From a virus: a DNA stretch of 28,780 nt. The translations under genes and the position numbers were made by a program. Below are positions 2,106 through 26,584 of this stretch, one piece after another; the stretch's first letter is position 1; each line of letters starts with the position of its first letter. The stretch is taken from positions 1-28,780 of the IMG/VR virus record IMGVR_UViG_3300040801_000798; one strand, 5' to 3'. A model generated the notes under the pieces. The model was not told the origin of the DNA. It saw only the letters and a list, made by a program, of their open reading frames with translations, and ran no database searches.

Positions 2106-3119
2106 ATGAAGCTCAAGAAGAGAGGTAAGACCTACATCCTCGACGGCTACATAAACGGCCAGAGGATACGCATATCGACGGGGTGCCAGGACCTAGGGGA
2201 GGCCAAAGCGGTCGCCCCTGGGCTCTGGGCCCAGGCCATGACGGAGAGCATCGAAAAGAGCGGGACCGGATTGACTCTGGCTAATGCTTTCCAGCGGTTG
2301 ATGGATGAGGAATGGAGCAAGCAGCGGGATGTCCACCACACCCAAGCGAGGATCGATGAGATCACGGAGATTCTCGGCCCGAAGACGCGACTGGTGGACA
2401 TCGACCGAGCCGCCCTCGTGCGTCTCCAGGAAGAGCTCCGGAAGAAGACGGGGCGCAACGTCAACAAGCCCGCCTCGCCGGCGACCGTGAATCGGAAGAT
2501 GGCCGTGATCCAACGGTTACTCCGGGTTGCCTGTGAGGAATGGGAGGAGCTCTCCTCTGTTCCCAAGGTGCGCCCCCTAAAGACCCCGAAGACCAAGATG
2601 CGGGGCATCACTACGGCTGAGATGCGGACGCTTATGAAGCTCGTCCCCGCGGACGCCGCTCAGGTCTTCAAGTTCCTCATCGAGACCGGTCTGCGGGTAG
2701 GGGAGTGGGACCAACTCTCGTGGTCAGCTATCGATTTCGAGGAGAACGTGATCCGCCTTGATCCCACTCAGATGGACATCAAGACGCACTCAGAGCGTAC
2801 CCTACCGATGACCCAAAGCACGAGAGATATGCTCTTAGAGAGGCGCTCGCGGGGTCTCACGGCACCGTTCTCGGACGTTGGTCGGGACTACATCTGGTAT
2901 CACTTCAAGAAAGCCCGCAAAGCGATGGGCCTCGAGGGTGACCGGGGGTTCGTCCTGCATGCTCTTCGGCACACCACCGCCACACGTCTCATCGACAAAG
3001 GCGTACCGACCTCGACCGTTCAGAAGTGGCTCGGCCATTCGTCGATCACCACGACTGAGCGATACATCCAACAGTCAGACAAGGAGCTCCACAAATATGC
3101 CAAGCTCGTAGAGGTGTGA
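2106..3119 (+). CDS. int: Tyrosine-type integrase
   Basis: A 337-residue site-specific recombinase of the lambda integrase superfamily that would insert phage DNA into the host chromosome. Residues ~1-45 form an arm-type DNA-binding domain (three strands, GYINGQRIRISTG). Residues ~55-155 are the core-binding SAM-like domain (TVNRKMAVIQRLLRVA). The catalytic domain shows R197 (TGLRVGEW), the beta-hairpin K226, H285 and R288 (LHALRHTTATRL), H311 (WLGHSS) and the nucleophile Y320 (TTERYIQ), so the active site is complete. It starts after an AGGAGG site. The attP described below begins within 140 bases of its stop, the usual int-attP arrangement. Integrases in T7-like phages are known in cyanophages and pelagiphages but are unusual. 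Confidence 0.95.
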   Translation: MKLKKRGKTYILDGYINGQRIRISTGCQDLGEAKAVAPGLWAQAMTESIEKSGTGLTLANAFQRLMDEEWSKQRDVHHTQARIDEITEILGPKTRLVDIDRAALVRLQEELRKKTGRNVNKPASPATVNRKMAVIQRLLRVACEEWEELSSVPKVRPLKTPKTKMRGITTAEMRTLMKLVPADAAQVFKFLIETGLRVGEWDQLSWSAIDFEENVIRLDPTQMDIKTHSERTLPMTQSTRDMLLERRSRGLTAPFSDVGRDYIWYHFKKARKAMGLEGDRGFVLHALRHTTATRLIDKGVPTSTVQKWLGHSSITTTERYIQQSDKELHKYAKLVEV

Positions 3120-3209
3120 CCCCAGGCGTGGTCACATCGCACTCGCGGCATGCGTGACCAAACGTGTGCCCAAATGTGACCAGCCGTGACCTGATTAGGT
3201 CACACCCGA

Positions 3210-3342
3210 GACGTAAGGTGTTGTTTTATATAGGGTAATCGCCCTCTCAAGGGATTCGTAATGCGTAGGTCGTCTGTTCGAATCAGACTGTCGGCACCAC
3301 TACCTACCCTCCGAATCTCCTTCTAAGACAACACCTTACGTC
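3210..3342. repeat. 18-nt inverted repeat bracketing the attP core
   Basis: GACGTAAGGTGTTGTTTT (3210-3227) matches the reverse complement of 3325-3342 (AAGACAACACCTTACGTC) at 17 of 18 positions. The inner gaps to the tRNA-like core are 26 and 25 bases, so the arrangement is nearly symmetric. This is what paired integrase arm sites or an accessory-protein site would look like. The rest of the 3120-3499 stretch holds no gene. Confidence 0.75.
3254..3299 (+). other. attP core: 3' half of a tRNA-Thr(CGU) gene
   Basis: The segment reads as the tRNA from position 31 of the anticodon arm to the CCA end: anticodon loop TTCGTAA (anticodon CGT), 3' stem TGCGT, variable loop AGGTC, T-arm GTCTG-TTCGAAT-CAGAC, acceptor strand TGTCGGC, discriminator A, then CCA. 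It closely resembles E. coli tRNA-Thr(CGU) from memory. The 5' half is absent: the bases before it (GGG) cannot pair with the 3' anticodon stem, and no GCCGACA acceptor strand lies upstream. So it is not a functional tRNA but the identity block through which integration would rebuild the host gene. Confidence 0.85.
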
Positions 3343-3425
3343 ATTCCCTGGGCCCACTTTCCGGGCCGAAACCAATTCCATTAGGACCGAACGCGACCAA
3401 ACCTGTGACCACCTTAAGGCATTGA

Positions 3426-3494: not shown

Positions 3495-3520
3495 CGTAGA
3501 TGACAATGGAGATCACCACT

Positions 3521-6035: not shown

Positions 6036-6665
6036 ATGGCTGATCCGAAGTTCGACCGTTACGACATCCTGGTGACCCCGAAAGGCGTTGCCGCCTTCCC
6101 GTGGCTCACGAAGCCCGACACCAAGTTCAACGAAGAGGGCGTCTACAAGACCGGCCTCGCTTTCGATCCGGAAGATCCGGCCTTCGTGAAGTTCAAGAAG
6201 AAGATCGAGGCGATCCACAAAGAGGCTGTCGCTGCCGTCAAGGAAAGCGGCAAGAAGAAGGTCACGGTGGTTTCACCCTTCCGCCCCGAAGAGGACGAAG
6301 AAGGTGAGCCGACGGGTCGCATCATCATCAACGCCAAGTCCAAGGCCAAGCAGAAGTACCGCGACGGCACCATCCAGGACGTGACACTCAACATCGTCGA
6401 TGCCAAGCGCAACGAGGTGCCCTCAAGCACTCCCGTCTACGGCGGTTCCGTGCTGCGGCTCGCGGTGCGTCCCGCCCCCTACTTCATGCAGGGCAAGTGC
6501 GGCATCACCTTGTACATCTCCGGAGTCCAGGTGATCGAGCTCCAGTCTGGCGGCGGTGGTGCGGCTGACTTCTTCGATGAGGAAGAGGGCTATGAGACCG
6601 AGGACGTCTCTGAGTCTCCCTTCGAGGATGACGCCGAAGACGAGGACGAGGACGACCTCTACTAA
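6036..6665 (+). CDS. 2.5: Single-stranded DNA-binding protein (T7 gp2.5-like)
   Basis: Coats single-stranded DNA during replication and recombination and contacts polymerase and helicase. The 209-residue protein has the family's early motif (GVYKTGLAFDPEDPAFVKF), an OB-fold core through about residue 170 (GRIIINAKSKAK, VYGGSVLRLAVRPAPYF), and a long acidic tail (EDDAEDEDEDDLY). T7 gp2.5 likewise ends in an acidic tail with a final aromatic residue, which binds the replication proteins. The start follows GAGGAGG. It is the first gene after the candidate promoter at 5981-6005. Confidence 0.9.
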   Translation: MADPKFDRYDILVTPKGVAAFPWLTKPDTKFNEEGVYKTGLAFDPEDPAFVKFKKKIEAIHKEAVAAVKESGKKKVTVVSPFRPEEDEEGEPTGRIIINAKSKAKQKYRDGTIQDVTLNIVDAKRNEVPSSTPVYGGSVLRLAVRPAPYFMQGKCGITLYISGVQVIELQSGGGGAADFFDEEEGYETEDVSESPFEDDAEDEDEDDLY

Positions 6666-6667
6666 CT

Positions 6668-7108
6668 ATGGATCTCATGGAGAGCCTCCTTCGGGGGGCT
6701 CGAGAGGCTCGTCACGTTGCATCGCTCCGTATCCCAGTAGACCCCATCCCAACTCCGCGCCCTCGCATGACGAGAGCGGGCAGGGTCTATTACCCAAAGA
6801 GCTACTTGGATTGGAGAGACAGCGTCAGGAAACACCTCAAGGAGGGTGACACCAATCTTGAGGGACCAGTAGTCGTCGCTGTGGAGCAGGTCAGACAAGC
6901 ACCAAAGAAAAGCAAACTGACCCATCCTCCCGGCGATGCCGACAATTACCTGAAGGCAATCCTCGATGCGATCACTCGTGCCGGGGGCTGGTGGAAGGAC
7001 GATGTGCAAGTCGTGTACGCGATCACCCGTAAGCGGTGGACGCAGAGCGGCGAAGATCCGCACACCGCCGTGGAAATCTACGAGATCGACGAGGACACCC
7101 GACCGTGA
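6668..7108 (+). CDS. rusA: RusA-like Holliday junction resolvase
   Basis: A structure-specific endonuclease that cuts four-way DNA junctions. The signature is clear: PIPTPRPRMTRAGRVYYPKS near residue 30, then GDADNYLKAILDAI and WWKDDVQV. D90, D92, K96 and D111 have the same spacing as E. coli RusA D70, D72, K76 and D91, so the active site is intact. It occupies the slot where T7 has the gene 3 endonuclease. The start is uncertain: ATG 6668 and 6677 are in frame, there is no clear ribosome site, and most RusA proteins begin near residue 20 of this frame. The first two bases after the SSB stop suggest coupling. The stop overlaps the next GTG. Confidence 0.9.
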   Translation: MDLMESLLRGAREARHVASLRIPVDPIPTPRPRMTRAGRVYYPKSYLDWRDSVRKHLKEGDTNLEGPVVVAVEQVRQAPKKSKLTHPPGDADNYLKAILDAITRAGGWWKDDVQVVYAITRKRWTQSGEDPHTAVEIYEIDEDTRP

Positions 7109-7563
7109 CGACCAAGCGTTGCTCACGGTGTAAGGAAACCAAACCCGTCTCTGAGTTCTGTCGGTTGTCCCGAAATCACGATGGCCGTCACAACTACTGT
7201 AAGCCTTGTCATAACACCTACCGCCGAGAGAGATACGCAGAGAACCCGCTCCCCACGCTACTGCTTGGGGCTAAGTACCGAGCCAAGAGTAAGGGGGTGG
7301 AGTTCAGCATCACGAAAGACGATGTGTTTCTCCCGAAGGTGTGCCCCGTTCTGGGTATTCCTTTGGAAGTAGGTACGGGCAACGGACCTATAGGCACTTC
7401 GCCAACCCTCGACCGCATCGTCCCCGACAAGGGATACGTCCCCGGCAACGTGGCAGTCATTAGCCACCGAGCCAACACCCTCAAGAGCGACGGCACTCCA
7501 GAAGAGCTACTCGCGGTAGCTGCGTGGGTGCGTGACCAAATCAACCAACAAGAGAAAAAATGA
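7105..7563 (+). CDS. Zinc-ribbon HNH/endonuclease VII-like nuclease
   Basis: A 152-residue protein with an N-terminal zinc ribbon (C6, C9, C32, C35: CSRCKETK and YCKPCH) and a C-terminal segment typical of a phage HNH-like nuclease family (LDRIVPDKGYVPGNVAVISH then RANTLKSD). A conserved CP near residue 76 (VCPVLGIPL) fits that fold. The start is GTG 7105, inside the RusA stop (GTGA); an upstream ATG at 7036 lies in RusA coding sequence and gives an arginine-rich non-protein lead. These genes often sit in T7-like replication modules as homing-like or DNA-degrading enzymes. The C-terminus overlaps the amidase start by four bases. The specific role is not known. Confidence 0.75.
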   Translation: MTTKRCSRCKETKPVSEFCRLSRNHDGRHNYCKPCHNTYRRERYAENPLPTLLLGAKYRAKSKGVEFSITKDDVFLPKVCPVLGIPLEVGTGNGPIGTSPTLDRIVPDKGYVPGNVAVISHRANTLKSDGTPEELLAVAAWVRDQINQQEKK

Positions 7564-7991
7564 ACTTCAAACCGCTGGAGCCGGTGGAATACATCGTAAT
7601 CCATTGCTCCGCCAACACGGCTGACTCGAAGTTCCGCCTCAAGGACATCGACCTGGAACACCGCAAGCGGGGCTGGCTCGCCTGCGGGTACCACTTGGTG
7701 ATTCCCCGAGACGGGACGCTTGAGTTCGGTCGTCCGTTAGATCGACAAGGAGCGCACGTTCGTTCCTACAACCATAAGTCAATCGGTGTGTGCCTCGTTG
7801 GAGGTATCCGCATCGAGAACGGCATCCACATTCCCGAAGACAACTTCACCGAGAACCAACTGCGTACGCTGCGGTTCGCTTTGGCGGCACTCCAAGAGAT
7901 GTATCCGATGGCAAAGGTCGTCGGACATAACGAGTTGGATGCCCGCAAGGCGTGTCCGGTTCTCAAGCTGGAGGACTACGGGCTCCGGTAA
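7560..7991 (+). CDS. 3.5: N-acetylmuramoyl-L-alanine amidase (T7 lysozyme-like)
   Basis: Cleaves the bond between muramic acid and L-alanine in peptidoglycan; in T7 the same protein also binds RNA polymerase and slows it. The 143 residues match the T7 fold: IVIHCSA (zinc ligand H15), GYHLVIPRDGTLEFGRP (Y44), SIGVCLVGGI, and GHNELDARKACP, with H123, K130 and C132 matching T7 H122, K128 and C130. There is one extra residue between H and K. There is no signal peptide, so release for lysis would need a holin. The surface that contacts T7 polymerase cannot be judged here. Confidence 0.93.
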   Translation: MNFKPLEPVEYIVIHCSANTADSKFRLKDIDLEHRKRGWLACGYHLVIPRDGTLEFGRPLDRQGAHVRSYNHKSIGVCLVGGIRIENGIHIPEDNFTENQLRTLRFALAALQEMYPMAKVVGHNELDARKACPVLKLEDYGLR

Positions 7992-8014
7992 TCATCCATG
8001 TAGGAGGCACCCCC

Positions 8015-8254
8015 ATGTTCCAAGACCTAAGCACCCTCGCGCCCCAGGAACGCACCGTATTGCGCCACCTGAGGCACACCGGAAGTATCACCCGGAACGA
8101 GGCCGAGGCGCTTCACAAGATCCGCCACCTGCCGACACGTATCCACACCTTGCGTGGTTTGGGGTTCGACATCCATAGCGACCGCCGCACCGACGTTAAC
8201 GGTCAGCGGTACGTCCGGTACTACCTCATTAAGGAGCCCTCCCATGAAGCATGA
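8015..8254 (+). CDS. Helix-turn-helix protein, 79 aa
   Basis: ATG 8015 follows a GTAGGAGG site; the frame extends upstream to 7952 inside the amidase gene, but that part is non-coding in character. The core (VLRHLRHTGSITRNEAEALH then LPTRIHTLRGLGFDI) is the helix-turn-helix typical of the small phage HTH_39-like family, followed by a wing (NGQRYVRYYLI). These short proteins are common in phage replication modules, and their targets are unknown. It could be a transcription regulator or a replication accessory factor. Confidence 0.7.
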   Translation: MFQDLSTLAPQERTVLRHLRHTGSITRNEAEALHKIRHLPTRIHTLRGLGFDIHSDRRTDVNGQRYVRYYLIKEPSHEA

Positions 8255-8408
8255 CGTTACGCCGATCCCTACGGCGATGTTCGACGCCTTCATGAGGGCC
8301 GAGGTAGTGAACCGAGAGTCTCCTCTGGTGGCTTCGGTCCTCCGCAAGGCGACCAAGGGTAGGGGCATCGTCAAGCGCCGGCAGTTGTGGAACCGGCAGC
8401 GGGGATGA
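8244..8408 (+). CDS. Small hypothetical protein, 54 aa
   Basis: ATG 8244 lies eleven bases before the end of the HTH gene, with AGGAG seven bases upstream, and its stop overlaps the next ATG (ATGA). The product (MKHDVTPIPTAMFDAFMRAE and onward) has an amphipathic helix and a basic C-terminus (KGRGIVKRRQLWNRQRG) that could bind nucleic acid. No family is recognised. Confidence 0.55.
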   Translation: MKHDVTPIPTAMFDAFMRAEVVNRESPLVASVLRKATKGRGIVKRRQLWNRQRG

Positions 8409-8758
8409 GCATCCCGGCCCTCCTACTTTACTCACTCATTCCCTACGCGCTCGGGCTTATGACCCGATGGCTCATTGACCTTTGGAGACATCTATGGCGG
8501 AAACGCACGAGACCGAATCAACCTGCGTCGGGCACGAGCCGTGCCCCGAGTGCGGCTCCAGGGACAACCTCGGGCGCTACGACGACGGGCACGGCTTCTG
8601 CTTCGGCTGTGGGTACTACGAGCATGGCTCGACGTCTTCCGATGCACCCGCTGTACCTCGAAGACGTTCTTCGCCAGAACTACTTGAGGGGATGGACTTC
8701 GAGAAATCCCACCGAGCAATCCGACCCAAGACCTTCCAGCATTGGAAGTACGAAGTAG
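8405..8758 (+). CDS. Small membrane protein overlapping the primase gene
   Basis: ATG 8405 overlaps the previous stop. Residues 2-25 (IPALLLYSLIPYALGLMTRW) form a hydrophobic segment followed by a basic cluster (RHLWRKRTR), a single-pass inner-membrane anchor with the positive side in the cytoplasm. After about residue 35 the frame runs inside the primase-helicase gene and becomes Ser/Thr/Gly-rich with no stop until 8758. Either the product is really about 117 residues with a 265-base out-of-phase overlap, or only the first 30-40 residues are selected. The function is unknown, and the long overlap lowers my confidence in the end. Confidence 0.4.
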   Translation: MSIPALLLYSLIPYALGLMTRWLIDLWRHLWRKRTRPNQPASGTSRAPSAAPGTTSGATTTGTASASAVGTTSMARRLPMHPLYLEDVLRQNYLRGWTSRNPTEQSDPRPSSIGSTK

Positions 8759-10119
8759 GGTTCGACTCCGACGGTAAGCCATTCCACATTGCCAACCACT
8801 TCGAAGGCGGGCGCAAGGTAGGCCAGAAGATCCGCCGAGGTGGCAAGAAGTTCTCCGTCAAGGGGAAGCTAAGCAACCTATATGGCAAGTGGCTTTGGAG
8901 CCCGACCAAGCGGATCATCATCACCGAGGGCGAGCTCGATGCCCTCAGCGTGTCCCAGATCCAGGGCAACAAGTGGCCCGTCGTGTCGCTACCCCAGGGG
9001 GCCCAGAGCGCGAAGAAGGCCTTAAGTGCAGAGCTCGAATGGCTCCAGCAGTTCGAGGAAGTCGTCCTCATGTTCGACATGGACGAGCCCGGACAAGAGG
9101 CCGCACTCAAGTGTGCGCGTCTCTTCAAGCCGGGGACGGTGAAGATCGCCAAGCTTCCTCTCAAGGACGCCAATGAGATGCTCAAGGCGGGGCGGGGTGA
9201 TGAACTCCAGACCGCTATCTGGAGCGCCGAGGTCTACCGACCCGACGGGATCGTCACGCTCGACTCGGTGACCGAGGACGTCCTCAAGCCCATCGAGTGG
9301 GGGCGCTCGTACCCCTGGCCCGTTCTTACGGAGCGGACCTACGGTCGTCACGACGGTCAGGTCATAGCGATTGGCGCAGGTACGGGCATTGGTAAGACCG
9401 ACTTCCTTACGGAGTGCATCCTTTGGGATCTCCACGAGCTCAAGCTCAACGTCGGCGTACTGATGCTCGAACAGCTACCTGCGGAGACCGTCAAGCGTAT
9501 CGCCGGCAAGCTGGCGGGCAAGCGGTTCCACGTTCCGGATGGCTCGTGGTCACCCGAGGAACTTGCCGCGGCGGTAGAGCAACTCAAGAGCGACGGCGGG
9601 TTGTTTCTCTATGACTCCTTTGGGGCCATCGATTGGGACACCATCCAGCACCGCATCCGCTATCTCGCGCTCGATGCCGGCTGCAAGCACATCTACCTCG
9701 ATCACCTCACGGCCCTGGCGGCACACGCCGACGATGAACGGACGGCCATCGAAGGGATCATGGCGGACCTTGCAGGGATGGCCCAGGAGATGCGCGTAAC
9801 GATCCACATCGTCTCGCACTTGGCGACCCCCGACGGTAAGCCCCACGAAGAGGGTGGTCGGGTGACGCTTCGGCACTTCAAGGGCTCCCGGTCCATCGGC
9901 TACTGGGCGCATGCAGCAATCGGTCTGGAGCGTGATCAACAAGCCGAGGACGAAACCGACCGCAACACCACCACGGTGCGTGTCCTCAAGGACCGCTACA
10001 CCGGACAAGCCACGGGTTTCACCTTTGGCCTCACCTACGACCACCAGACGGGGCGGCTCAAGCAAGCCGGTGCCCCTGAGGAGTTCGAGTTCAACGACGA
10101 ATCAGAGGAGATCTACTAA
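8494..10119 (+). CDS. 4: DNA primase-helicase (T7 gp4-like)
   Basis: Makes RNA primers and unwinds the replication fork as a ring. ATG 8494 has GGAG six bases upstream; a TTG at 8482 in the same frame is less likely. From 8494, the zinc-binding cysteines are C17, C20, C36 and C39, the same numbers as in T7. The TOPRIM primase core shows IITEGELDALS and LMFDMDEPGQEAA. The RecA-like helicase has Walker A GAGTGIGKT (K301), Walker B KHIYLDHL, motif 3 TIHIVSHLA and the arginine region (HFKGSRSIGYWAHAAIGLER). The tail ends in acidic residues and an aromatic (ESEEIY), as expected for polymerase contact. It has 541 residues; T7 has 566. Confidence 0.97.
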   Translation: MAETHETESTCVGHEPCPECGSRDNLGRYDDGHGFCFGCGYYEHGSTSSDAPAVPRRRSSPELLEGMDFEKSHRAIRPKTFQHWKYEVGFDSDGKPFHIANHFEGGRKVGQKIRRGGKKFSVKGKLSNLYGKWLWSPTKRIIITEGELDALSVSQIQGNKWPVVSLPQGAQSAKKALSAELEWLQQFEEVVLMFDMDEPGQEAALKCARLFKPGTVKIAKLPLKDANEMLKAGRGDELQTAIWSAEVYRPDGIVTLDSVTEDVLKPIEWGRSYPWPVLTERTYGRHDGQVIAIGAGTGIGKTDFLTECILWDLHELKLNVGVLMLEQLPAETVKRIAGKLAGKRFHVPDGSWSPEELAAAVEQLKSDGGLFLYDSFGAIDWDTIQHRIRYLALDAGCKHIYLDHLTALAAHADDERTAIEGIMADLAGMAQEMRVTIHIVSHLATPDGKPHEEGGRVTLRHFKGSRSIGYWAHAAIGLERDQQAEDETDRNTTTVRVLKDRYTGQATGFTFGLTYDHQTGRLKQAGAPEEFEFNDESEEIY

Positions 10120-16227: not shown

Positions 16228-16441
16228 CTCTCCCTCACCCCCTCAGACAAACACGCAGCCCGAGCAAAAGCCTCTGCGGATTCTCTTGGGCCGCGACCGC
16301 TTCGACAAGATGGGCGGCGGCGGAGGCTCACCTGCGGTAAACGCCGGAGTACTGCTCAGCCGGAACTTCCGTTCTACCGCTAACGGGCCTCTCCAGTCTA
16401 CCGTTCCGCCCTCCGGCGCTGGCCTCAACATTTCACCGTGA
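16220..16441 (+). CDS. Proline/glycine-rich protein, possible T7 gp7.3 counterpart, 73 aa
   Basis: ATG 16220, with AGGAAG upstream, gives MCSSPSPPQTNTQPEQKPLR, then a GGGGGS loop and the end VPPSGAGLNISP. The C-terminal SGAGLNI resembles the SGGGINI end of T7 gp7.3, a small virion protein encoded just before the portal, and the position is the same. The second-residue cysteine is not a lipobox, since no hydrophobic signal precedes it. The identification rests on position and this short tail, so it is tentative. The stop overlaps the portal GTG. Confidence 0.5.
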   Translation: MCSSPSPPQTNTQPEQKPLRILLGRDRFDKMGGGGGSPAVNAGVLLSRNFRSTANGPLQSTVPPSGAGLNISP

Positions 16442-17979
16442 TTGAGGTAGGCCAAGCACGGGAGCGATGGAACCACCTACATAGGTGCAAGTCCCAAGTA
16501 CGGCAACGCGCAGAGAAATGTGCGGCCCTCACGCTCCCGACTATCATGCCGCCCGAAGGTCACGTTGAAGGTAGCAACCTTCCCGAACCCTTCCAGTCTC
16601 TCGGCGCGAAGGCAGTCAACAATCTGAGCTCCAAGATTCTCATTGCTCTATTCCCCCCGAACACCGCTTTCTTCAAGCTAGGATTCGACCAGATCACCCA
16701 GGCCCGTATGGAAGGTGAAGGCCTCGACATCACGCGCATCCAAAAGGATCTCGCCGTGATCGAGCAGACCGTCGTCTCTCAGCTTGAGCAGACCCGACTC
16801 CGGGCCGAGATGGGCATGTGCATCAAGCACCTGCTTATTACCGGGAACTACGTAATCGATACGACTCCCAATCTCGGCTTCCGCGGCTTCGGTCTGAACC
16901 ACTTTGCGGTCAACCGTGACCCCGAAGGCGCTGTTCTTGAACTCGTGATTCGCGAAGAGGTTTCCCCTCTGACGCTCGACGACGAGACCAAGAACGCCTG
17001 TTTCAACGAGCAGGAAAAGCGCGAGTTCTCCGCCAACCCCGACGAAGATATCGAGGTGTTCACCGTCCAATACCGAGACGGGAACCAAGTCAAGGTCCGC
17101 CAGGAAATCAACAACAAGGTTGTCCCTGGCTCCGAGGGATCATACCCCCTAGACGCTCCTCGATTCGTCGCATTGCGCTGGTCCTCCATTACCGATGAGG
17201 ACTACGGGCGCGGGATGGTTGACGAGTACTACGGGGATATCCTGGCGCTTGACTCCCTGAGTCGCGACCTTCTGTTGGCTTCTTCGGCAGCAGCTAAGGT
17301 GATCTTCACGGTTGACCCTAATTCCATCCTCACCCCGCACAAGATTGCAAGCGCCAAGTCTGGCGACGTTCTCAAGGGCAATAGCGAGGAGGTAGGAACC
17401 GTCAGCGTAGACAAGATGCAGGACTTCCAGATTGTCCTGGAGCGTCTGCGCGATATCCAACGAGACCTCTCCGAGGCATTCCTCATGAACACCTCCGTCC
17501 AGCGGGACGCCGAGCGTGTCACGGCGGAAGAGATCCGCTTCATGGCCCAGGAACTCGAGGACGCCCTTGGCGGTGTCTACTCGGTTCTGGCTCAAGAGCT
17601 CCAAGTGCCTCTCCTGAGGCGCATCCTCAAGCTCTTGGCCCGCCAGAAGCTCATCCCCGATCTCCCCTCCGATGTGCAGTTGAGCATCACCACGGGGCTC
17701 GAGGCGTTGGGTAGAGGTCACGAGGTTCAGAAACTCATGCAGTTCTTCGGGGCTGCGGCACAAATCATTCCTCCCGAGCAGTTGGTCATGCGGATCAAAA
17801 CCCAAGACGTTCTCAACATCTTTGGGTCCGCCTTCGGTCTCGACACCGAGTCCATCCTACTGACGGAAGAGGAAGTCCAAGCCCAGCAGCAGCAAGCGAT
17901 GGCAGCACAGGCCATGCAGCAAGCGGCTCCTGGGGTAGCCCAAGAAATGGTACGTCAAGGAGGTAATCCCAATGGCTAA
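16438..17979 (+). CDS. 8: Head-tail connector / portal protein (T7 gp8-like)
   Basis: Forms the twelve-fold ring at the head vertex through which DNA is packaged and ejected. The 513 residues match T7 gp8 (536): NLPEPFQSLGAKAVNNLSSK early, then LALDSLSRDLLLASSAAAKV, and RDAERVTAEEIRFMAQELED, the portal's conserved 'R.TA.EI..' helix. The C-terminal Gln/Ala-rich stretch (VQAQQQQAMAAQAMQQAAPG) is flexible. The start is GTG 16438, overlapping the previous stop. Confidence 0.95.
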   Translation: MIEVGQARERWNHLHRCKSQVRQRAEKCAALTLPTIMPPEGHVEGSNLPEPFQSLGAKAVNNLSSKILIALFPPNTAFFKLGFDQITQARMEGEGLDITRIQKDLAVIEQTVVSQLEQTRLRAEMGMCIKHLLITGNYVIDTTPNLGFRGFGLNHFAVNRDPEGAVLELVIREEVSPLTLDDETKNACFNEQEKREFSANPDEDIEVFTVQYRDGNQVKVRQEINNKVVPGSEGSYPLDAPRFVALRWSSITDEDYGRGMVDEYYGDILALDSLSRDLLLASSAAAKVIFTVDPNSILTPHKIASAKSGDVLKGNSEEVGTVSVDKMQDFQIVLERLRDIQRDLSEAFLMNTSVQRDAERVTAEEIRFMAQELEDALGGVYSVLAQELQVPLLRRILKLLARQKLIPDLPSDVQLSITTGLEALGRGHEVQKLMQFFGAAAQIIPPEQLVMRIKTQDVLNIFGSAFGLDTESILLTEEEVQAQQQQAMAAQAMQQAAPGVAQEMVRQGGNPNG

Positions 17980-18130
17980 GGCCAACGCACACACAATGGA
18001 CGACAAAGACCTGCCGAAAGAAGAGGCCCCGAAAAAGGAGCCCAAGCCGGCCCCCCGTCCGCCCAAGGCCGACACCACCGGCCCGACGGTTCGGGAACTC
18101 GATAACGGCGGCAAGCTCATTCAGCGATGA
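17972..18130 (+). CDS. Small Lys/Pro-rich protein between portal and scaffold, 52 aa
   Basis: ATG 17972 has the best ribosome site in the region (AAGGAGG with a seven-base gap), placed inside the portal's last codons. The product (MAKANAHTMDDKDLPKEEAP and onward, then PAPRPPKADTTG) is disordered, with KEEAPKKEPKP runs, and ends VRELDNGGKLIQR. It ends at TGA inside the scaffold start (ATGA). It could help scaffold or portal assembly, but this is inference. Confidence 0.65.
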   Translation: MAKANAHTMDDKDLPKEEAPKKEPKPAPRPPKADTTGPTVRELDNGGKLIQR

Positions 18131-18933
18131 GTGAAGCTCTCCAGCCGGGAACGCCGGAGTACGATGCGGCTATGGTCGCCAAAGCCGAAGGGGCAGCAGC
18201 CCCCGAAAGCACTCCGCCGTCCAACGAAACGCCCGAGACGTCCGAAGAGACGCCCAAGTACGCCAACAAGTTCCAGTCAGTTGAAGATCTGGAGAAAGCG
18301 TATCTCGAGGCACAGAAGCTCATCTCCTCCGGTCAACATAAAGAGCCGCAAGCGGCTAATACCGAGGAGACCCCGCCGACCACCGACCTGCCGGAGCGCC
18401 CCGAGGCGTCCGACGAAAGCGCGGAAGACTCTGGCGGGATCGACTTCGAGAAGTACTCCCGGTCCATCGCGGAGAATGGCGCTCTGACGGATGAAGACTA
18501 CACCGAGCTCGAGGCCAAAGGTCTCCCTCGCGGTGTGGTCGATGCGTACGTAGCCGGCCTCCAGACCCAAGCCCAGGCCCGTGTGAACGCGGTAGCCGAA
18601 GCTCTGGGTGGCGAGGAGACGTTCGAAGCAGTTCGTCAATGGGCTTCCTCGAATCTGAGCGACGACGAGTTCGCTGCCGTTCAGTCTCAGCTTCAGAACG
18701 CGAAGTCGGAGGCGGAGGTCATTCTGACCTACCAGACTCTCCAGACTCGCTACAACCAAGCGAACCCCGGCGAGGCCTCTCTCGTTACCGGGAAGACCTC
18801 GTCTACGCCGTCGGCCCGCCCGTACGGCAACAAGCAGGAGCTCACCGAAGCGATGGCGGACAAACGCTATCAGGTGGATTCCGCCTACACCAAGGAAGTC
18901 GAAGAGCGCCTCATGGCGACCGACTGGGTGTAA
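18127..18933 (+). CDS. 9: Capsid assembly scaffold (T7 gp9-like)
   Basis: Internal scaffold that shapes the procapsid and leaves before DNA entry. The 268 residues are acidic and largely helical. Typical features: an N-terminal disordered Pro/Glu-rich region, a KFQSVEDLEKAYLEAQKLIS helix, IDFEKYSRSIAENGALTDED, and a basic-aromatic end (YTKEVEERLMATDWV), as in T7-type scaffolds whose C-terminus binds the capsid shell. The position between portal and capsid agrees. The start overlaps the previous stop. Confidence 0.88.
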   Translation: MSEALQPGTPEYDAAMVAKAEGAAAPESTPPSNETPETSEETPKYANKFQSVEDLEKAYLEAQKLISSGQHKEPQAANTEETPPTTDLPERPEASDESAEDSGGIDFEKYSRSIAENGALTDEDYTELEAKGLPRGVVDAYVAGLQTQAQARVNAVAEALGGEETFEAVRQWASSNLSDDEFAAVQSQLQNAKSEAEVILTYQTLQTRYNQANPGEASLVTGKTSSTPSARPYGNKQELTEAMADKRYQVDSAYTKEVEERLMATDWV

Positions 18934-19144: not shown

Positions 19145-20128
19145 ATGGCAAACGCCAATGTTTCCCTCCAGGGTCAGAACAACGGTGCTGGCGCTGAAGA
19201 CGCTCTGTTTTACAAGCTGTTTACCGGTGAGGTTCTGACTGCGTTCTCCGCGAACAACGTCATGGAAGGCCGTCACCGCATCCGCAACATCTCCAGCGGC
19301 AAATCCGCCGCCTTCGCCAACACCGGCAAGGCCTTCGGTCGGGTCCACACTCCGGGTGAAGAAATCCTGGGTCAGAACCAACTGCACAGCGAGACCGTCA
19401 TCACGGTTGATGACCTCCTGATTGCGGACACGTTCATCGCCGACATCTACGAGGCCAAGAACCACTACGAAGTTCGTGGTGAGTACGCCAAGCAGAACGG
19501 TCTGGCGCTGGCTCGGACCTTCGACAAGCAGTCCTTCCGTGTGGCCGCGACCGCGGCTCGTGCTTCCAACAAGATCACGGGCCTTCCGGGTGGTACCTCG
19601 CTGACGCTGAGCGCCGGCTATGCCGCTGCCTCCGACGCCGCCAAGGCCCAGGAGTTCGCCGAGGCGCTGTTCACCATCCACCAGAACTTCGTCGAGAAGG
19701 ACGTCCCGCTCGAAGGCGTGTTCTGCGCCGTTCGTCCGGTTGACTACTTCCGGCTGGTCCGCAACAAGGATCTCCTGAACAAGGACTGGGGTGGCCTGGG
19801 CTCCTACGCAATGGCAGACCTGCCGATGATCGCCGGCATCCCTCTGGTGGTCACGAACCACCTGCCGTCCCAGGACGACGCTGCCAACGTGGTCGGTGGA
19901 AAGATCTCTGACAACGGAGACCTCATCCAGGACAAGTACTCCGGTGACTGGACCTCCCTCCAGGCCATCGTCATGACTCCGGAAGCTATGGGTACGGTCA
20001 AGCTGATCGACCTCGGCCTCCAGAGCGAGTACGACATCCGCCGTCAGGGTACGTTGATGGTTGCCCGCATGGCCATCGGCCAGGGCCTCCTGCGTCCCGA
20101 GTGCGCGGCTGAAATCGTCACGCCGTAA
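19145..20128 (+). CDS. 10: Major capsid protein (T7 gp10-like)
   Basis: Shell subunit of the icosahedral head (HK97-type fold). ATG 19145 follows AAAGGA. The 327 residues show T7 gp10 features: an N-terminal arm (LQGQNNGAGAEDALFYKLFT then GEVLTAFSANNVME), the SGKSAAFANTGKAFGRVHTP loop, DDLLIADTFIADIYEAKNHY, and near the C-terminus VKLIDLGLQSEYDIRRQGTL and VARMAIGQGLLRPECAAEI. The high third-position C/G and strong ribosome site suit the most abundant protein of the virion. A dedicated terminator follows. T7 makes a minor longer capsid form by frameshifting; I see no slippery run at the end here. Confidence 0.97.
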   Translation: MANANVSLQGQNNGAGAEDALFYKLFTGEVLTAFSANNVMEGRHRIRNISSGKSAAFANTGKAFGRVHTPGEEILGQNQLHSETVITVDDLLIADTFIADIYEAKNHYEVRGEYAKQNGLALARTFDKQSFRVAATAARASNKITGLPGGTSLTLSAGYAAASDAAKAQEFAEALFTIHQNFVEKDVPLEGVFCAVRPVDYFRLVRNKDLLNKDWGGLGSYAMADLPMIAGIPLVVTNHLPSQDDAANVVGGKISDNGDLIQDKYSGDWTSLQAIVMTPEAMGTVKLIDLGLQSEYDIRRQGTLMVARMAIGQGLLRPECAAEIVTP

Positions 20129-20209: not shown

Positions 20210-20848
20210 ATGGCAATCCCTACTCCAACTACGGAGCTTTCTGCCGTTAACGAGATGCTCACCAGCATCGGCGTCACGCCGGTCTCGACCCTTAGCGTCC
20301 CCGGCACGACTGACGCGGCAATCGCGCTGGATACTCTCCGGAGCATCTCCAAAGAAGTCCAGGCCCAGGGCTGGTGGTTCAACCAAGATTTCAACGTGTC
20401 GTTCGCCGCTTCCAACTCTGAGATCACCGTACCCGCTAGTGTTCTGGCGATTCGCCCCTCCTTTGGGACCGTGGATTCAACGCCCGAGTCCCGCCAGTTC
20501 ATCCTTCGGGACAACAAGCTGTGGGACCAGGGCAGCAAGACCTACACCTTCGCCTCCACCGTCCGGGCCGATGTGATCTACGAGATCGAGTACGAAAATC
20601 TCCCTGAGTCCTTCCGCCGGTACATCGCCATCCGCGCCGCCCGCGTGTTCCAGACCAAAGTCCTCGGTGACGAGGCCCAAGGTGTCTGGAGCGAACGCCA
20701 CGAGCTCGAGGCATGGTCTATCGTCGAAGGCGACGAGGTGGTCCAGAACCCCCAGAGCTCTCTCTTCATGCGCCGTGCGCGAGCCGTTGGTGGTGCCTAT
20801 CGCGCCGATCCCGTGGTCGCCACTCAAGGTAACCAGAGACAGCGATGA
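20210..20848 (+). CDS. 11: Tail tubular protein A, copy 1 (T7 gp11-like)
   Basis: Forms the gatekeeper ring under the portal. The 212 residues carry AVNEMLTSIGVTPVSTLSVP, a QAQGWWFNQDF segment and IRPSFGTVDS, features of T7-type gp11. The later half has YIAIRAARVFQTKVLGDEAQ and WSIVEGDEVV, as in the family. CAAGGAG precedes the start and the stop overlaps the next gene. The following gene encodes a related protein, so this is the first of a tandem pair. Confidence 0.92.
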   Translation: MAIPTPTTELSAVNEMLTSIGVTPVSTLSVPGTTDAAIALDTLRSISKEVQAQGWWFNQDFNVSFAASNSEITVPASVLAIRPSFGTVDSTPESRQFILRDNKLWDQGSKTYTFASTVRADVIYEIEYENLPESFRRYIAIRAARVFQTKVLGDEAQGVWSERHELEAWSIVEGDEVVQNPQSSLFMRRARAVGGAYRADPVVATQGNQRQR

Positions 20849-21453
20849 GCCTCCTCTTCGAGTTCTTCACGCGGGATGAGGATGTAGAGCAGATCAATGA
20901 CATGCTCGAAGTCATGGGCCTTCCGCCCGTGGCATCCCTCTCTAACGTCTCCCGCCAGTCCGACGCCGGGATGGCTATGCGGACCTACTTCAAGGTTATC
21001 CGCGAAGCCCAAGGCCGCGGCTGGTGGTTCAACTCCCAGTACCGCCAAGAGTTCGCTCCGGACCTCAACAACAACATCCTCGTCAACAAGGCCCTCCACG
21101 TTCGCCCCTCACCGCCCCAGCCTGGGGAGCTCATGCAAGACCCTATCTACCTCGTCCCGAACCCCGACTGGCTGACGTCCAAGGTGGTCAACGCGACTAC
21201 CAACTCTGACGAATGGACGGACCCTCTCTGTTTGGATGTGGTGTATCTCAAGAACTCCCTCGAGATCCCCGAGGAGCTCCGGGAGTACGCCCTGGCACGG
21301 GCATCCCGGAAGTTCGCGGCCAAGTTCGGCCAAGCGGTAGACCCGACGGACGAGCAGCAAGCGTGGGTAGCCCTCCTTCGGAAGGACTCCGAGTTGGGTC
21401 AAGACCCGAACCTCTTCCTGAATCCTCAAATCTACACGCAGGTATTCCGCTAA
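20845..21453 (+). CDS. Tail tubular protein A paralogue, copy 2
   Basis: The 202 residues align with copy 1 across the whole length: INDMLEVMGLPPVASLSNVS against VNEMLTSIGVTPVSTLSVPG, EAQGRGWWFNSQY against EVQAQGWWFNQDF, HVRPS against AIRPS, and YALARASRKFAAKFGQAVDP against YIAIRAARVFQTKVLGDEAQ. T7 itself has only one such gene. The pair suggests two stacked or alternating ring proteins, or division of labour between portal and tail nozzle contacts. The first residues (MSLLFEFFTRDED) are different, and the insertion around YLVPNPDWLTSKV is specific to this copy. Confidence 0.88.
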   Translation: MSLLFEFFTRDEDVEQINDMLEVMGLPPVASLSNVSRQSDAGMAMRTYFKVIREAQGRGWWFNSQYRQEFAPDLNNNILVNKALHVRPSPPQPGELMQDPIYLVPNPDWLTSKVVNATTNSDEWTDPLCLDVVYLKNSLEIPEELREYALARASRKFAAKFGQAVDPTDEQQAWVALLRKDSELGQDPNLFLNPQIYTQVFR

Positions 21454-23576
21454 TGTCCCTAGTCCCTCAGTCGATCCCGGCCCTATATGGCGGGGTCTCT
21501 CAGCAAGCCGCTGTTACGCGGAACCCGACCCAATGCGAGGACGCCGTCAACTGTGACTTCTCTATCCTCAAGGGTGTCTCTAAGCGGCCCCCTCTGGAGA
21601 CCGTCACGGAACTGGCTAGTGCCGACCTGAGGGACGCCTTCTTCCATTGGGTCCGCATTAGTAACGGGAGGTGGTTCATTGTCGTGGTCCCCGGCGACGG
21701 GACGTACTCGGTGTACGACGTCGAAGACGGGTCCAAGATCACCTCGGTGGACGACTCCGCCCAGGCATACCTGACGAGCACCGCCAAGGCCCAAGACGCC
21801 TTCTTCGCGGTGGACCTCAACGGTGAGGTCTACATCGTCAACCGAGAGGAGCAGGTCCAGTTGACGTCCGACCAGACCGCCGGTTCAATTGCCGGCACGG
21901 CCCAGACGCTCCAAGACTCTGCGCTTGATAGCGCCGCGGAGGGGTCTATCTGGGAAATCCTGGGGGACGAGAACAACCCCGTGGATACCTACTACGTCAA
22001 GAAGTCCAACGGCAAGTTCTTCGAGTGGGTCCGCCCTGGCATCCCCTTCCGTATCAACCAGGGAACGATGCCCCATGTGATCGAGATCCTCGAAGACCCC
22101 GTTGATCCCCTCGGTGTCCGCGCTGAGTTCGGCTCGGTGTCCTGGGGAGAGCGTGAGGTCGGAGACGCTGAGTCCAACGAAGCGCCGTCCTTTGTGGGCG
22201 AGCGCATCCGATCCCTTAGCTTCAAGAGCGACCGCCTTGGGCTCCTGGCCGGACAGAGTTTCACATACTCGGAAGTCGGGGAGTACCGGAACTTCTGGCG
22301 CACGACCGTGACGGATGTACTTGAGTCCGACCGCATCGACAACACCGTCAACGCCTTCGAAGTTTCTCAACTGTACTTTGCCGAGACCGTCTCCCGGTCC
22401 CTCGTCTTGTTTGCCAACGAGCGCCAGTTCTCTGTGGACGGAGATGTCTTCTCCCCCACCTCCCTCAACGTCAACCCCGTTACCGCCTACCCCACCTCGG
22501 AGAACCTGAGGCCGATCTCCATCGGACCTACGGTCTACTTCGCAGCCAACGCAGGTGACTTCACCCAGATCCGTGAGATGTTCATTCAGAACGACACGGT
22601 GACCCTGGATGCAGCAAACATCACCTCGCATGTCCCAGACTACATTCCGTCAAACGTCCGTGTGATGGAGGGACACCCCTCACTTGACCAGATCTTGCTC
22701 CATAGTCCCGACGCTCCGGGAGATCTCTTCTCCTACCAGTTCTACTGGAAAGGCGATGAGAAGGCCCTCAGCGCATGGAACCGGTGGACCATTGCCGGCG
22801 GGGCTTCCCCCATAAGCCTCCGTGCCATCGGTCCCTACATGTATTGCGTGTATCACTACGAGTCCGCCAACGGGAATCACGCCTTTCTCGGGCGGTTCAA
22901 CCTCAAGCGAGGCGACCTACCTGAGGGCATGCCCCACAAGATCCACCTCGATCACCTCCAGAAGGTGAACCCCGTGTACAACTCCATCGAGGACCGGACC
23001 TACTTCGTGACCACGTTCCCCTTCGGAGACACCTTAGTGGACCACGACTTCGTGCTCTTGCGGGGCAACGGGTGGAACAACAAGGGCTCCTACCAGACCC
23101 GCAACGATGGCTCCTCCCAGATCTTCAAGGGAGTGGGGCTTAACCAAGTCTACATGGAAGGAGACCAGACGGGTGGTGATTGGTGGATCGGGCTCAACTA
23201 CGAGATGTCCTATCGCTTCTCTGAGCAGTTCTTCTACAAGGACGGACGCCCTCAGCTTCACACCCGTGTGAATATCCGTAGCGTCACCGTCCACTTCGAG
23301 GACACCGGGTACTTCCAGGTGCGTACCCAGGTGCGCGGTGCCGATCCCATCGAGGCGGACTACGTGCCGGGGCTCGAGACCTCCTATACGGCTCGCACCG
23401 TGGGGGACACCTACTTCCGCCTAAATGCTCCTCAGCTTCAGAGCGGTACCTACCAGTTCCCCATCTTCGGGAGAGCCTCGGACATCTTCTTCGAACTCGC
23501 CAACCCGACCCCAATGCCCTCCAACTTCCAATCTGCCGAGTGGAAGGGGCTCATCTCAACGAGGACTCCACGATGA
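21453..23576 (+). CDS. 12: Tail tubular protein B (T7 gp12-like)
   Basis: Forms the nozzle of the short tail. The start is ATG 21453, sharing one base with the preceding stop, because the N-terminus is then PQSIPALYGGVSQQAAVTRN, typical of gp12 ('IP.L.gGVSqQ...R'). Upstream frame sequence is inside another gene and arginine/proline-rich noise. The 707 residues (T7 794) include DCDFSILKGVSKRPP-like start sequence, repeated beta-propeller segments (TYSVYDVEDGSKI, AFFAVDLNGEVYIVNREEQV), and VSQLYFAETVSRSLVLFANE followed by RQFSVDG. The C-terminus ends WKGLISTRTPR. The stop overlaps the next start. Confidence 0.93.
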   Translation: MSLVPQSIPALYGGVSQQAAVTRNPTQCEDAVNCDFSILKGVSKRPPLETVTELASADLRDAFFHWVRISNGRWFIVVVPGDGTYSVYDVEDGSKITSVDDSAQAYLTSTAKAQDAFFAVDLNGEVYIVNREEQVQLTSDQTAGSIAGTAQTLQDSALDSAAEGSIWEILGDENNPVDTYYVKKSNGKFFEWVRPGIPFRINQGTMPHVIEILEDPVDPLGVRAEFGSVSWGEREVGDAESNEAPSFVGERIRSLSFKSDRLGLLAGQSFTYSEVGEYRNFWRTTVTDVLESDRIDNTVNAFEVSQLYFAETVSRSLVLFANERQFSVDGDVFSPTSLNVNPVTAYPTSENLRPISIGPTVYFAANAGDFTQIREMFIQNDTVTLDAANITSHVPDYIPSNVRVMEGHPSLDQILLHSPDAPGDLFSYQFYWKGDEKALSAWNRWTIAGGASPISLRAIGPYMYCVYHYESANGNHAFLGRFNLKRGDLPEGMPHKIHLDHLQKVNPVYNSIEDRTYFVTTFPFGDTLVDHDFVLLRGNGWNNKGSYQTRNDGSSQIFKGVGLNQVYMEGDQTGGDWWIGLNYEMSYRFSEQFFYKDGRPQLHTRVNIRSVTVHFEDTGYFQVRTQVRGADPIEADYVPGLETSYTARTVGDTYFRLNAPQLQSGTYQFPIFGRASDIFFELANPTPMPSNFQSAEWKGLISTRTPR

Positions 23577-24037: not shown

Positions 24038-24506
24038 ACCAACCACGATTGTGATGGCTGCTACCCTCGCGGCCTCTGCCTACTCCCTCAATGAGCAACG
24101 CAAGACCGCCAAGCGGAATGAGCGGTTTGCTCGAGCCGCTCAGGCAGAGCAAGCGAAGCAAGCCTTCACCAACAGATCAACGGAAGCAAACCAGAGATCC
24201 CAGCGGGCTCGGGCCGAACGTGCTCGGCTGCGGGCGATGAGCGCGGAGACCGGCCTCTCCGGAGTCACCACCGACTCGATCCTACGTAACGTTGACTTCC
24301 AGGTCGGAAGAGACGTAGCGCGTATCCAGCGGTCGGGAGACTTCGACCAGACCAACTCTCGTTATCGCCTCCAGAGCAACCTCAACCAAATCCAGCAACC
24401 CGACTATGTCGGTGCCGCGCTCAACACCGGCCTTGCCCTATACACGGGCTACCGAGATGTCCAGAACGCGGGCAACCCTGCTAATGCCCCCGGAGGCTCC
24501 CCATGA
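24030..24506 (+). CDS. 14: Internal virion protein (T7 gp14-like), 158 aa
   Basis: Starts at ATG 24030 inside the previous gene's end. An N-terminal hydrophobic helix (TTIVMAATLAASAYSLNEQR) is followed by charged helices with long Ala/Arg/Gln runs (RAAQAEQAKQAFTNR, RSQRARAERARLRAMSAETG), then GVTTDSILRNVDFQVGRD. T7 gp14 similarly has a membrane-active N-terminus and is ejected into the host envelope as part of the DNA channel. The length (T7 196) and order agree. The stop overlaps the gene 15 start by four bases. Confidence 0.8.
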   Translation: MCEPTTIVMAATLAASAYSLNEQRKTAKRNERFARAAQAEQAKQAFTNRSTEANQRSQRARAERARLRAMSAETGLSGVTTDSILRNVDFQVGRDVARIQRSGDFDQTNSRYRLQSNLNQIQQPDYVGAALNTGLALYTGYRDVQNAGNPANAPGGSP

Positions 24507-26584
24507 GACGACCGACTCGCGAGCGTAAGGAGAAGGTAAGCCTACAAAAGGCCGACCTCGGTGACGTACGCCAAGGTAGTCTGCTCAACCAGAACATCTA
24601 CTTTGAGCGCGACAACAGTCGCCAGATGACCAACTTCCTGAACAACCTTGCGAGCTTCGCACAAGAGCGGGCCGTAGGTGAGGCCCGAGAGTCAGCCAAA
24701 GAACAACGCGCTGCTCTTGAGGCCCAGGCCCAAGCGGACGTAGCTGCCGGCGAGATCGACGATGATCTGCTCGCCAACCAGCAGGTGTACCGCGAGTCGG
24801 TCTCCCTCATCCAGGGACACAACGCCGGCCTCGAGGCCCGCGCCAGTATCCTCCAAGACGCCATGCGTGAGGCCGAGATCCAAGGCCCCGGCTTTGACTA
24901 CAACGCCTACGCAGAGGAACGTGTCCGGGAACTCACCGAGAGCGACGCCTTCCAAGACCCTCAGTTCGCCGCAGCCGCGAGCGAGCAGTTGGGCCTCTTG
25001 GAGCAGGAGATCACCTCCGCCGCGGTCAAGCGACAAGCCGAGCTTGAAATCCAGGAAGGAGAGCTCACCGCCCAGCAGGTGGCCTTCACGATGTTCCGAA
25101 CCGGAACGTGGGACTTCGAAGAGTTCAACGCCCAGACCGAAGAGATCGGACTCACCCCGAGTGAGAAGACCGCAGCCAAAATCGGCGGTGCCATCTCGGC
25201 GATGGATCAGGCTAAGTCCCTAGATGACCTCAAGGCCCTCGATGCGCTCATGGAGTCTCTCCCGGAGTCCCAGAAGGCCCAGTACGGGGACGACCTCCAG
25301 AAGGCCTATAGGACCGCCGAGCGGCGGCTCTTGGCCGCTGAGGGCAAGCAGAACAACGCCCGGACCCTCGAGGAGATCCTTCGTCGCCGTGCCCTCAAAG
25401 AGAGCTACCTCAACGACGAGGTCGGCACCGAGCACTTGTTTGCTGCCCGTGAGTCCGGTCTTCTGAGTGACTCCGAGGTCGAGACCTTGGTCAACCAGCG
25501 GATCGACGCCGAGGAAGCCTTCCAGGCCGAAGTGGCCCTCGAACAGGAATACATCGGTGTCATGGAGATGGGCCCGGAGGCTCTCGCTCTGCGTGGCTCC
25601 GAGTTCCAGCGAGGCTTCACCGAGTGGTACAACGAGGCCTCAAGAGAGGTCGGCGACCAAGTGATGAGTCTTGCTCTTCAAGCACGTAGCGGGGCCGATC
25701 CCGACGGCGTTCGTCAGCAGATCCGAGAGGTTCTCGAAGCAGACGCGCATATCGTCCGCGGTATGCAGGAGCTAGGTATCCGGCCTCCGTGGCTCAAGGG
25801 CTACCTTGCGACCGCCAAAGATCCCGCCACCCCGGCTATGGAATCCATCGCTATGGTTACGGAAACGATGGAAGGCATGTTCGGCACGGGCATCCTTGCT
25901 GATGTCCCAGACGACGTCAGAGCCAACATCCGGGCCTACCGGAAGCTCACCCAAACGATGAGCCACGAGGAGGCCCAGGCGGTCCTGACGACGCGCTCAG
26001 CGAGCCCCGCGGCGTTCACCGCTCGGGTGGTCAAGGCGGACAAGGACTTCCAGAAGGCAGTAGAAGACATCCTCGAGGACAACCCCTCCGGTACGGCTGA
26101 TGCCGAGGAGTTCACCGACATGGTGACTCGCTACTACGCGATGCACAACGACATGGACTGGGCCCTCGAGCAAGCAGAGGCCGACTGGCAAGACACCACC
26201 GTCAAGATCGACGGGAGGACTTGGCGTAGCGCAGACCTACCCACGGGCTTCGCTGAGGTCTACGAGGACAACAAGGACCGCCTCGGTGAACGTCTCGCCC
26301 AGGCCGGCGTCATCGGAGAAGGCGATGAGTTCGCGCTTCGACCCGTGCCGGGGCTCGATGGTGAGTTCGAGATTCTCAACGTCACTCAAGGCCTCTGGGG
26401 TTCCGCCCCGCAGGGAGGCCGTGTTCGCATGAACACCCAGGAACTCTTCGAGGCGATGGGACGTTTCGAGCTCGAGGACAAGAAAGCCGCTGAAGCCGCC
26501 AAGGCCGAGCGCCTCAAGACCCAAGCTCGCTACGCGGACGAAGCCAGAGAGCTCGAACAACAATTCAACGGAGTAATTCGATAA
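24503..26584 (+). CDS. 15: Internal core protein (T7 gp15-like), 693 aa
   Basis: A large, almost entirely helical, acidic protein with no transmembrane segment, placed between gp14-like and gp16-like genes, as in T7 (747 residues). It starts basic (MRRPTRERKEKVSLQKADLG), then NLASFAQERAVGEARESAKE and many E/A/Q-rich helices. The C-terminal end (LEDKKAAEAAKAERLKTQAR, LEQQFNGVI) is also helical. T7 gp15 forms part of the stack inside the head and then the periplasmic channel. Sequence identity is not provable by eye; the call rests on size, position and composition. Confidence 0.82.
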   Translation: MRRPTRERKEKVSLQKADLGDVRQGSLLNQNIYFERDNSRQMTNFLNNLASFAQERAVGEARESAKEQRAALEAQAQADVAAGEIDDDLLANQQVYRESVSLIQGHNAGLEARASILQDAMREAEIQGPGFDYNAYAEERVRELTESDAFQDPQFAAAASEQLGLLEQEITSAAVKRQAELEIQEGELTAQQVAFTMFRTGTWDFEEFNAQTEEIGLTPSEKTAAKIGGAISAMDQAKSLDDLKALDALMESLPESQKAQYGDDLQKAYRTAERRLLAAEGKQNNARTLEEILRRRALKESYLNDEVGTEHLFAARESGLLSDSEVETLVNQRIDAEEAFQAEVALEQEYIGVMEMGPEALALRGSEFQRGFTEWYNEASREVGDQVMSLALQARSGADPDGVRQQIREVLEADAHIVRGMQELGIRPPWLKGYLATAKDPATPAMESIAMVTETMEGMFGTGILADVPDDVRANIRAYRKLTQTMSHEEAQAVLTTRSASPAAFTARVVKADKDFQKAVEDILEDNPSGTADAEEFTDMVTRYYAMHNDMDWALEQAEADWQDTTVKIDGRTWRSADLPTGFAEVYEDNKDRLGERLAQAGVIGEGDEFALRPVPGLDGEFEILNVTQGLWGSAPQGGRVRMNTQELFEAMGRFELEDKKAAEAAKAERLKTQARYADEARELEQQFNGVIR

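Follow-up and report, generated by a model that had tools for sequence, protein, structure and literature searches.

The locus studied here raises the question of why a T7-like phage should encode two tail adaptors at the position where T7 encodes one, and of how two such proteins may be accommodated in a single tail. The seating of a 12-fold adaptor on a 6-fold nozzle with six fibres, in a tail that counts among the textbook machines, is a case of the general symmetry-mismatch problem of phages. A group of phages whose adaptor has been duplicated and appears to have diverged at its contact sites would offer a genetic handle on this mismatch.

Two gp11-type genes at the adaptor position

The stretch of DNA analysed, referred to as the window, comprises the 28,780 bases of IMG/VR record IMGVR_UViG_3300040801_000798, derived from an uncultured virus, and is a segment of a T7-type phage genome. 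It carries an integrase (2106-3119), a T7-type RNA polymerase (3500-5947), a primase/helicase and a DNA polymerase, as well as the structural genes for the portal, a head-tail connector of the gp8 type (16438..17979, plus strand; PF12236, 250.4 bits), the scaffold (18127-18933) and the major capsid protein (19145..20128, plus strand; recognised by alignment with phage major capsid proteins). The capsid gene lies immediately 5' of the gp11-type adaptor copy A (20210..20848, plus strand; 212 aa), which is followed by the gp11-type adaptor copy B (20845..21453, plus strand; 202 aa) and the gp12-type nozzle (21453..23576, plus strand; 707 aa; PF25675, 465.9 bits), the internal virion proteins being encoded downstream of the nozzle. 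The stop codon of A and the start codon of B overlap in the sequence ATGA (20845..20848, plus strand), and the stop codon of B and the start codon of the nozzle also overlap (TAATG). Both copies are located between the major capsid and nozzle genes, that is, at the position of the gp11 gene in T7. The integrase directly upstream of the RNA polymerase gives the appearance of a temperate T7-like phage, a comparable case being Rhizobium phage TRX32-1, the record of which states that it was induced from a lysogen. The position of the T7 internal virion protein gp15 is occupied by a 693-aa protein (24503-26584) with no PHROG match at E 0.01.

Copies A and B both exceed the cut-off of the PF17212 'Tube' family (122.3 and 60.2 bits, respectively; cut-off 22.3) and both match phrog_446 (1.5e-45 and 8.7e-21), while they share 27% identity with each other over 187 aligned columns (E 5e-17 for this one comparison). 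Scored with a profile built from single-copy adaptors, with no tandem sequence included, A reaches 187.0 and B 98.2 bits, and the top score among 300 shuffles of the six tandem proteins (214 of them reported) is 5.1 bits, which rules out a chance match. A single gene that has been split or frameshifted is likewise ruled out, as each copy covers nearly the whole profile, unlike the adaptor of one other locus (L030), where one gene is split into two frames whose pieces fall at profile positions 4-98 and 96-193. The sequence motifs on which the preliminary description had based its pairing of the two genes, NEML/NDML, GWWFN, RPS and an arginine/alanine helix (AIRAARVF in one and ALARASRKF in the other), are found in both translations.

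AlphaFold2 models, made from alignments of 61 adaptors, were obtained with a mean pLDDT of 89.1 and a pTM of 0.80 for A, and of 89.5 and 0.82 for B. The order of elements is H H E..E H H H in both, B having an extra short helix at its start, and each model consists of two main helices, a five- or six-strand barrel and three further helices, the last of which is of low confidence in both. Copy A is predicted to run from helix 1 through a loop to helix 2, the fibre-dock barrel, helices 3 and 4 and an extended C-terminal tail; B is predicted to have the same fold, with degenerate fibre-dock residues and Arg as its last residue. In Foldseek searches against the PDB, T7-type adaptors take the top 19 places for A and for B. 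The best match of A is the P-SCSP1u adaptor gp22 (8i4m_G, E 3.8e-15; 6r21_M, 3.2e-14) and that of B is the KP32 tail tubular protein A (5mu4, E 7.6e-12; 6r21_M, 2.2e-11), which we take to be a single-copy protein. VIA-align superposes the models on T7 gp11 (6r21_N) with Z scores of 18.4 for A and 17.9 for B, and the layout of T7 gp11 given in section 8 of PMC6702177, with main helices, a barrel and more helices, agrees with both. The two proteins are thus both T7 gp11-type tail adaptors by profile and by predicted fold, and the suggestion that they are true paralogues of one fold, which a difference in fold would have overturned, is borne out by the models and both structural comparisons.

The preliminary description also assigned to B a different N-terminus and an extra segment. 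The N-terminus is indeed different and slightly longer, and the extra segment corresponds to residues inserted in the region of the fibre dock; about five residues are missing from B after helix 3, and the longer C-terminal tail belongs to A, not to B.

Distribution and descent of the pair

Single-copy adaptors are the rule among the relatives examined, where one gp11 gene stands in the place of the pair, as had been proposed from the window by itself. Searches by tblastn against 50,697 phage records returned matches to A in 1,794 records (1,795 places) and to B in 1,094 records (1,095 places). The A and B queries land on the same gene in OR464703, KT997847 and MN857473, which are therefore one-copy phages, and ten phage records that were opened contain one gp11 each by profile search. 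The one record of the 1,794 with two places matching A may be a further phage with two copies, or its match may be split. A set of 392 loci was fetched from IMG/VR, GTDB genomes and phages and the window was added; 341 loci with capsid, gp11 and nozzle were recognised by profile search after four copies of the window and of one relative (L270) had been excluded, and they comprise 282 distinct gp11 sets. Four of the 341 show several gp11 open frames (the window, L270, L359 and the split gene of L030) and three have two gp11 genes (the window, L270 and L359), among loci that are not a random sample, since they were fetched by similarity to the genes of the window and include overlapping contig pieces, and from collections that may lack the closest relatives of the window. 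These three depart from the one copy per genome that is usual, if not strictly defining, for PF17212 adaptors.

Viral contigs scanned with B alone and with the window nozzle alone yielded no relative, and those scanned with A alone yielded three distant ones. Megablast of the whole region against named phages and a search of plasmids with B were without matches. PF17212 was found in two of 385 genomes of the class to which a Xanthobacter genome (G003, locus L250) belongs, with one match each and none in tandem, and a capsid-based scan of genome contigs gave 26 loci, 23 of them with gp11 and none with two. No account of a phage with two gp11 genes was found in the literature at the level of titles and abstract openings, and an unlisted or closed paper may exist. 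In seven other loci (L013, L054, L245, L247, L252, L255 and L292) the capsid and gp11 genes are separated by a gap of 1.6-2.4 kb, which in L013 holds proteins of 104 and 545 aa annotated as hypothetical.

The first of the two relatives with the pair, L270 (IMGVR_UViG_3300047160_001227), has a capsid protein 61% identical to that of the window and encodes A at 6082-6726, B at 6726-7349 and the nozzle at 7353-9452. The second, L359 (IMGVR_UViG_3300037465_000085), is a 4.3 kb contig with A at 2069-2725 and B at 2729-3361, and with its nozzle cut off. The order A-B-nozzle is common to all three phages, and in each of them the gene lying between A and the nozzle is an intact B of 202-210 aa. The A copies of the relatives are 45-47% identical to that of the window and the B copies 20-27% (BLASTP of the window B against the L270 B gives 26% over 102 residues). 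In the family search, the A copies of the relatives pass PF17212 with 139.9 and 133.5 bits and the B copies fall below its cut-off of 22.3 with 15.9 and 14.1 bits. These B copies are still matched by phrog_446 (1.8e-7 and 3.3e-4) and by the single-copy adaptor profile (37.0 and 33.4 bits; best shuffle 5.1), and a profile made from all three B copies can be aligned with single-copy adaptors at a probability of 99.7% (E 6e-27). An unlabelled gene 5' of the nozzle may, as a caution, be a second adaptor that is too diverged for Pfam.

The nozzles of the tandem phages are 44-52% identical. When 42 nozzle rows were placed in a tree, the three phages grouped together in a single clade with an SH-aLRT of 100, and the sister group (98) consisted of eight rows with one copy each, Stenotrophomonas prophages among them. 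Judged from these trees and gene orders, the pair is heritable and has been inherited in three divergent phages. A tree of 89 adaptor rows unites the A copies in one clade (100) with end branches of 0.51-0.83, and the end branches of the B copies measure 2.05-2.55 (for the window, 0.83 in A and 2.05 in B). By branch length B has been diverging several times faster than A, the conserved copy, and the six tandem sequences represent two lineages rather than six independent events.

The closest partners of the A clade in a tree of 50 rows are the single-copy adaptors of L100 and L265 (support 77). As L100 also belongs to the sister group in the nozzle tree, A is probably the inherited copy. The tree position of the B copies is unsure because of long-branch placement. 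When A and B were forced into one clade in the 50-row tree, the likelihood was 1.52 above that of the free search (p-AU 0.559), so that the test does not reject a duplication inside the lineage; this origin is compatible with the data, short of proof, and a fast-evolving foreign gp11 is a possible source of B. As B diverges very fast, a relaxed constraint or a new role for it may also be considered. A foreign base composition of either copy was looked for and gave no clear signal, GC3 being 0.75 in A and 0.81 in B, and 0.64-0.80 in five neighbouring genes.

Residues kept by each copy

The fibre dock was compared at seven positions conserved in at least 75% of the family, giving 21 cells per set of three copies, the region having been delimited by us. 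The A copies keep 19 of these 21 cells and the B copies three, and outside the dock B keeps 56 of 102 conserved cells (Fisher p 0.0007, a descriptive value since the cells are not independent). At position 99, where 98% of single-copy rows have Arg, the residues are R/R/R in A and D/P/P in B. Part of this loss may reflect misalignment, as the alignment of B is gappy in the region. That the tandem clade might have replaced its T7-type fibre anchor was considered and set aside, since PF03906 is present in the L270 record (G001:C1:10018-10341), as it is in each of the 12 records searched. The L270 phage also has, downstream of its internal virion protein genes, a gene for a 557-aa protein with the bacteriophage tail-tip fibre domain PF09327 (L393:7708-9378, minus strand).

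Contact positions of T7 were transferred to the tandem copies via phage T3, the adaptor of which has the same length (196 aa). In T7, the loop between helices 1 and 2 of gp11 (E26, D35, D39) rests on the nozzle in two alternating conformations, according to section 10 of PMC6702177, because each nozzle subunit meets two adaptors. At the E26 position, 292 distinct single-copy rows have E in 212, Q in 70 and other residues in 10 (E or Q in 282 of 292). The three A copies have V/T/T and the three B copies L/L/L, Leu being found in none of the 292 rows, and the same result is obtained in the separate 89-row alignment. D39 is kept in all six tandem copies in the 89-row alignment and in five of six in the larger one, where one B loses it. 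A compensating change was sought in the nozzle at the equivalent of P-SCSP1u R766, a nozzle residue that touches the adaptor. The aligned column is variable, with Arg in 92 of 255 nozzles, Gln in the window and Arg in L270, so that no matching change is seen.

The portal contacts of T7 gp11 are listed in section 9 of PMC6702177 as E173, E175, D177 and R196. In both alignments position 175 is D/E/E in B and E/H/H in A, and position 177 is E/E/E in B and V/N/V in A. Arg at position 196 aligns in all six tandem copies in one alignment and in three of six in the larger one.

Arrangement of the two adaptors in the tail

The adaptor rings of T7 and P-SCSP1u contain 12 identical subunits, set against six nozzle subunits and six fibre trimers (PMC6702177, PMC10575957). 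The T7 protein depends on the portal for assembly of this ring (PMC6702177). Since 12 adaptors meet six nozzles and six fibre trimers, neighbouring adaptors already have different jobs. Section 9 of PMC10575957 describes each P-SCSP1u nozzle subunit as meeting two adaptors, and each fibre trimer as docking on two adaptors through unequal contacts. The reading we favour, at a rough probability of 0.45, is that an old tandem duplication of gp11 in one T7-like (Autographiviridae-type) clade has given two paralogues that alternate in one 12-subunit ring. The two adaptor jobs would then be encoded as two genes, and A and B, co-assembling as six of each below the portal, as we infer, would fill the two unequal positions of one ring in register with the six nozzles. 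In such a ring A would retain the main fibre dock, B would take the other position and retain the acidic contacts to the portal clip, and each paralogue would present a different residue to the nozzle. Somewhat more tentatively, the step from 12 to six, for which known phages use a single protein in two conformations, may itself have been divided between the genes of an A6B6 ring. The ATGA overlap is likely to reflect translational coupling, by which translation of B would depend on that of A and the two products might be kept in balance.

A heteromeric ring appears to be the best fit to the residues kept by each copy, and the alternating arrangement also accords with the ATGA overlap of the two genes, the fibre anchor in L270 and the changes at the E26 site in both copies. 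The very fast divergence of B and the lack of a matching nozzle change count against it. If A and B do hold the two positions, their sequences would indicate which residues each position needs, and the clade would provide a natural case of a pseudo-symmetric ring turned into a true heteromer by gene duplication.

The contrast between a conserved and a fast-evolving copy could also mean that A alone builds a normal ring and that B serves as an assembly factor, as a plug of the portal before the ring is closed, or as an extra contact to fibre or receptor. Such an accessory role, which we regard as somewhat unlikely, would suit the several times faster evolution of B, its loss of most conserved fibre-dock residues and the sub-threshold PF17212 scores of the relatives. 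It is less easily reconciled with the full predicted fold of the window B, with the acids kept at 175 and 177, with the intact frame in all three phages and with the alignment of the three-B profile to single-copy adaptors. The intact frame bears equally on the notion that B is a redundant or decaying relic of the duplication, assembling at random or never. Asymmetric divergence is typical of a copy that is being lost, but a neutral relic would hardly survive so long in compact genomes whose nozzles are as divergent as those of the three phages, nor would it be expected to share Leu at T7 position 26 in all three B copies; we consider this explanation quite improbable.

Ring proteins stack in the necks of long-tailed phages such as T4, GTA and Milano, and structures from these necks are among the PDB matches of the A and B models. 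One paralogue might sit on the portal and the other form a further ring below, in contact with the nozzle, giving a longer tail neck. Both models have a complete fold including the C-terminal segment, and the portal-clip acids are kept in B and largely lost in A, as would be expected if only one copy touches the clip. Stacking nevertheless seems unlikely to us, as the lower ring would have to be offered a face resembling the portal and neither model contains a new domain for this, as the nozzle-contact residue is changed in both copies rather than one, and as A keeps the fibre-dock residues of the family in a tail type where the fibre is placed between the adaptor and the nozzle. HK97 (gp6/gp7) and SPP1 (gp15/gp16) also have several rings under the portal, where adaptor and stopper form rings of different folds, whereas the copies of the window are predicted to share one adaptor fold.

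T7 gp11 (PF17212, phrog_446; PDB 6r21, 7box, 7ey7) is like A and B in fold, in the order capsid-gp11-gp12 and in profile match, but it is a single gene whose product supplies 12 identical subunits (PMC6702177), while the window has two genes with different kept residues and a changed nozzle-contact residue. The adaptor of P-SCSP1u (8i4m) presents two unequal positions per fibre trimer (PMC10575957), but one gene product fills both. What is unusual is the adaptor copy number, family and predicted fold being of the known T7 gp11 type. The term gatekeeper, used for the ring in the preliminary description, is not appropriate, as the T7 gp11 channel is described as wide (40 A) and without constraint and the gates are placed in the nozzle gp12 (PMC6702177, sections 8 and 10).

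In the nozzle of the window (21453-23576), about 100 residues are missing relative to positions 136 to 240 of T7 gp12, in a stretch that in T7 leads to the nozzle tip (PMC6702177). The short nozzle is not tied to the duplication, since many single-gp11 relatives also have short nozzles. Just 5' of the capsid gene, a tRNA-Asn gene is found in RHEph21 (L007:1109-1182) and in LUZ100 (L010:1114-1189).
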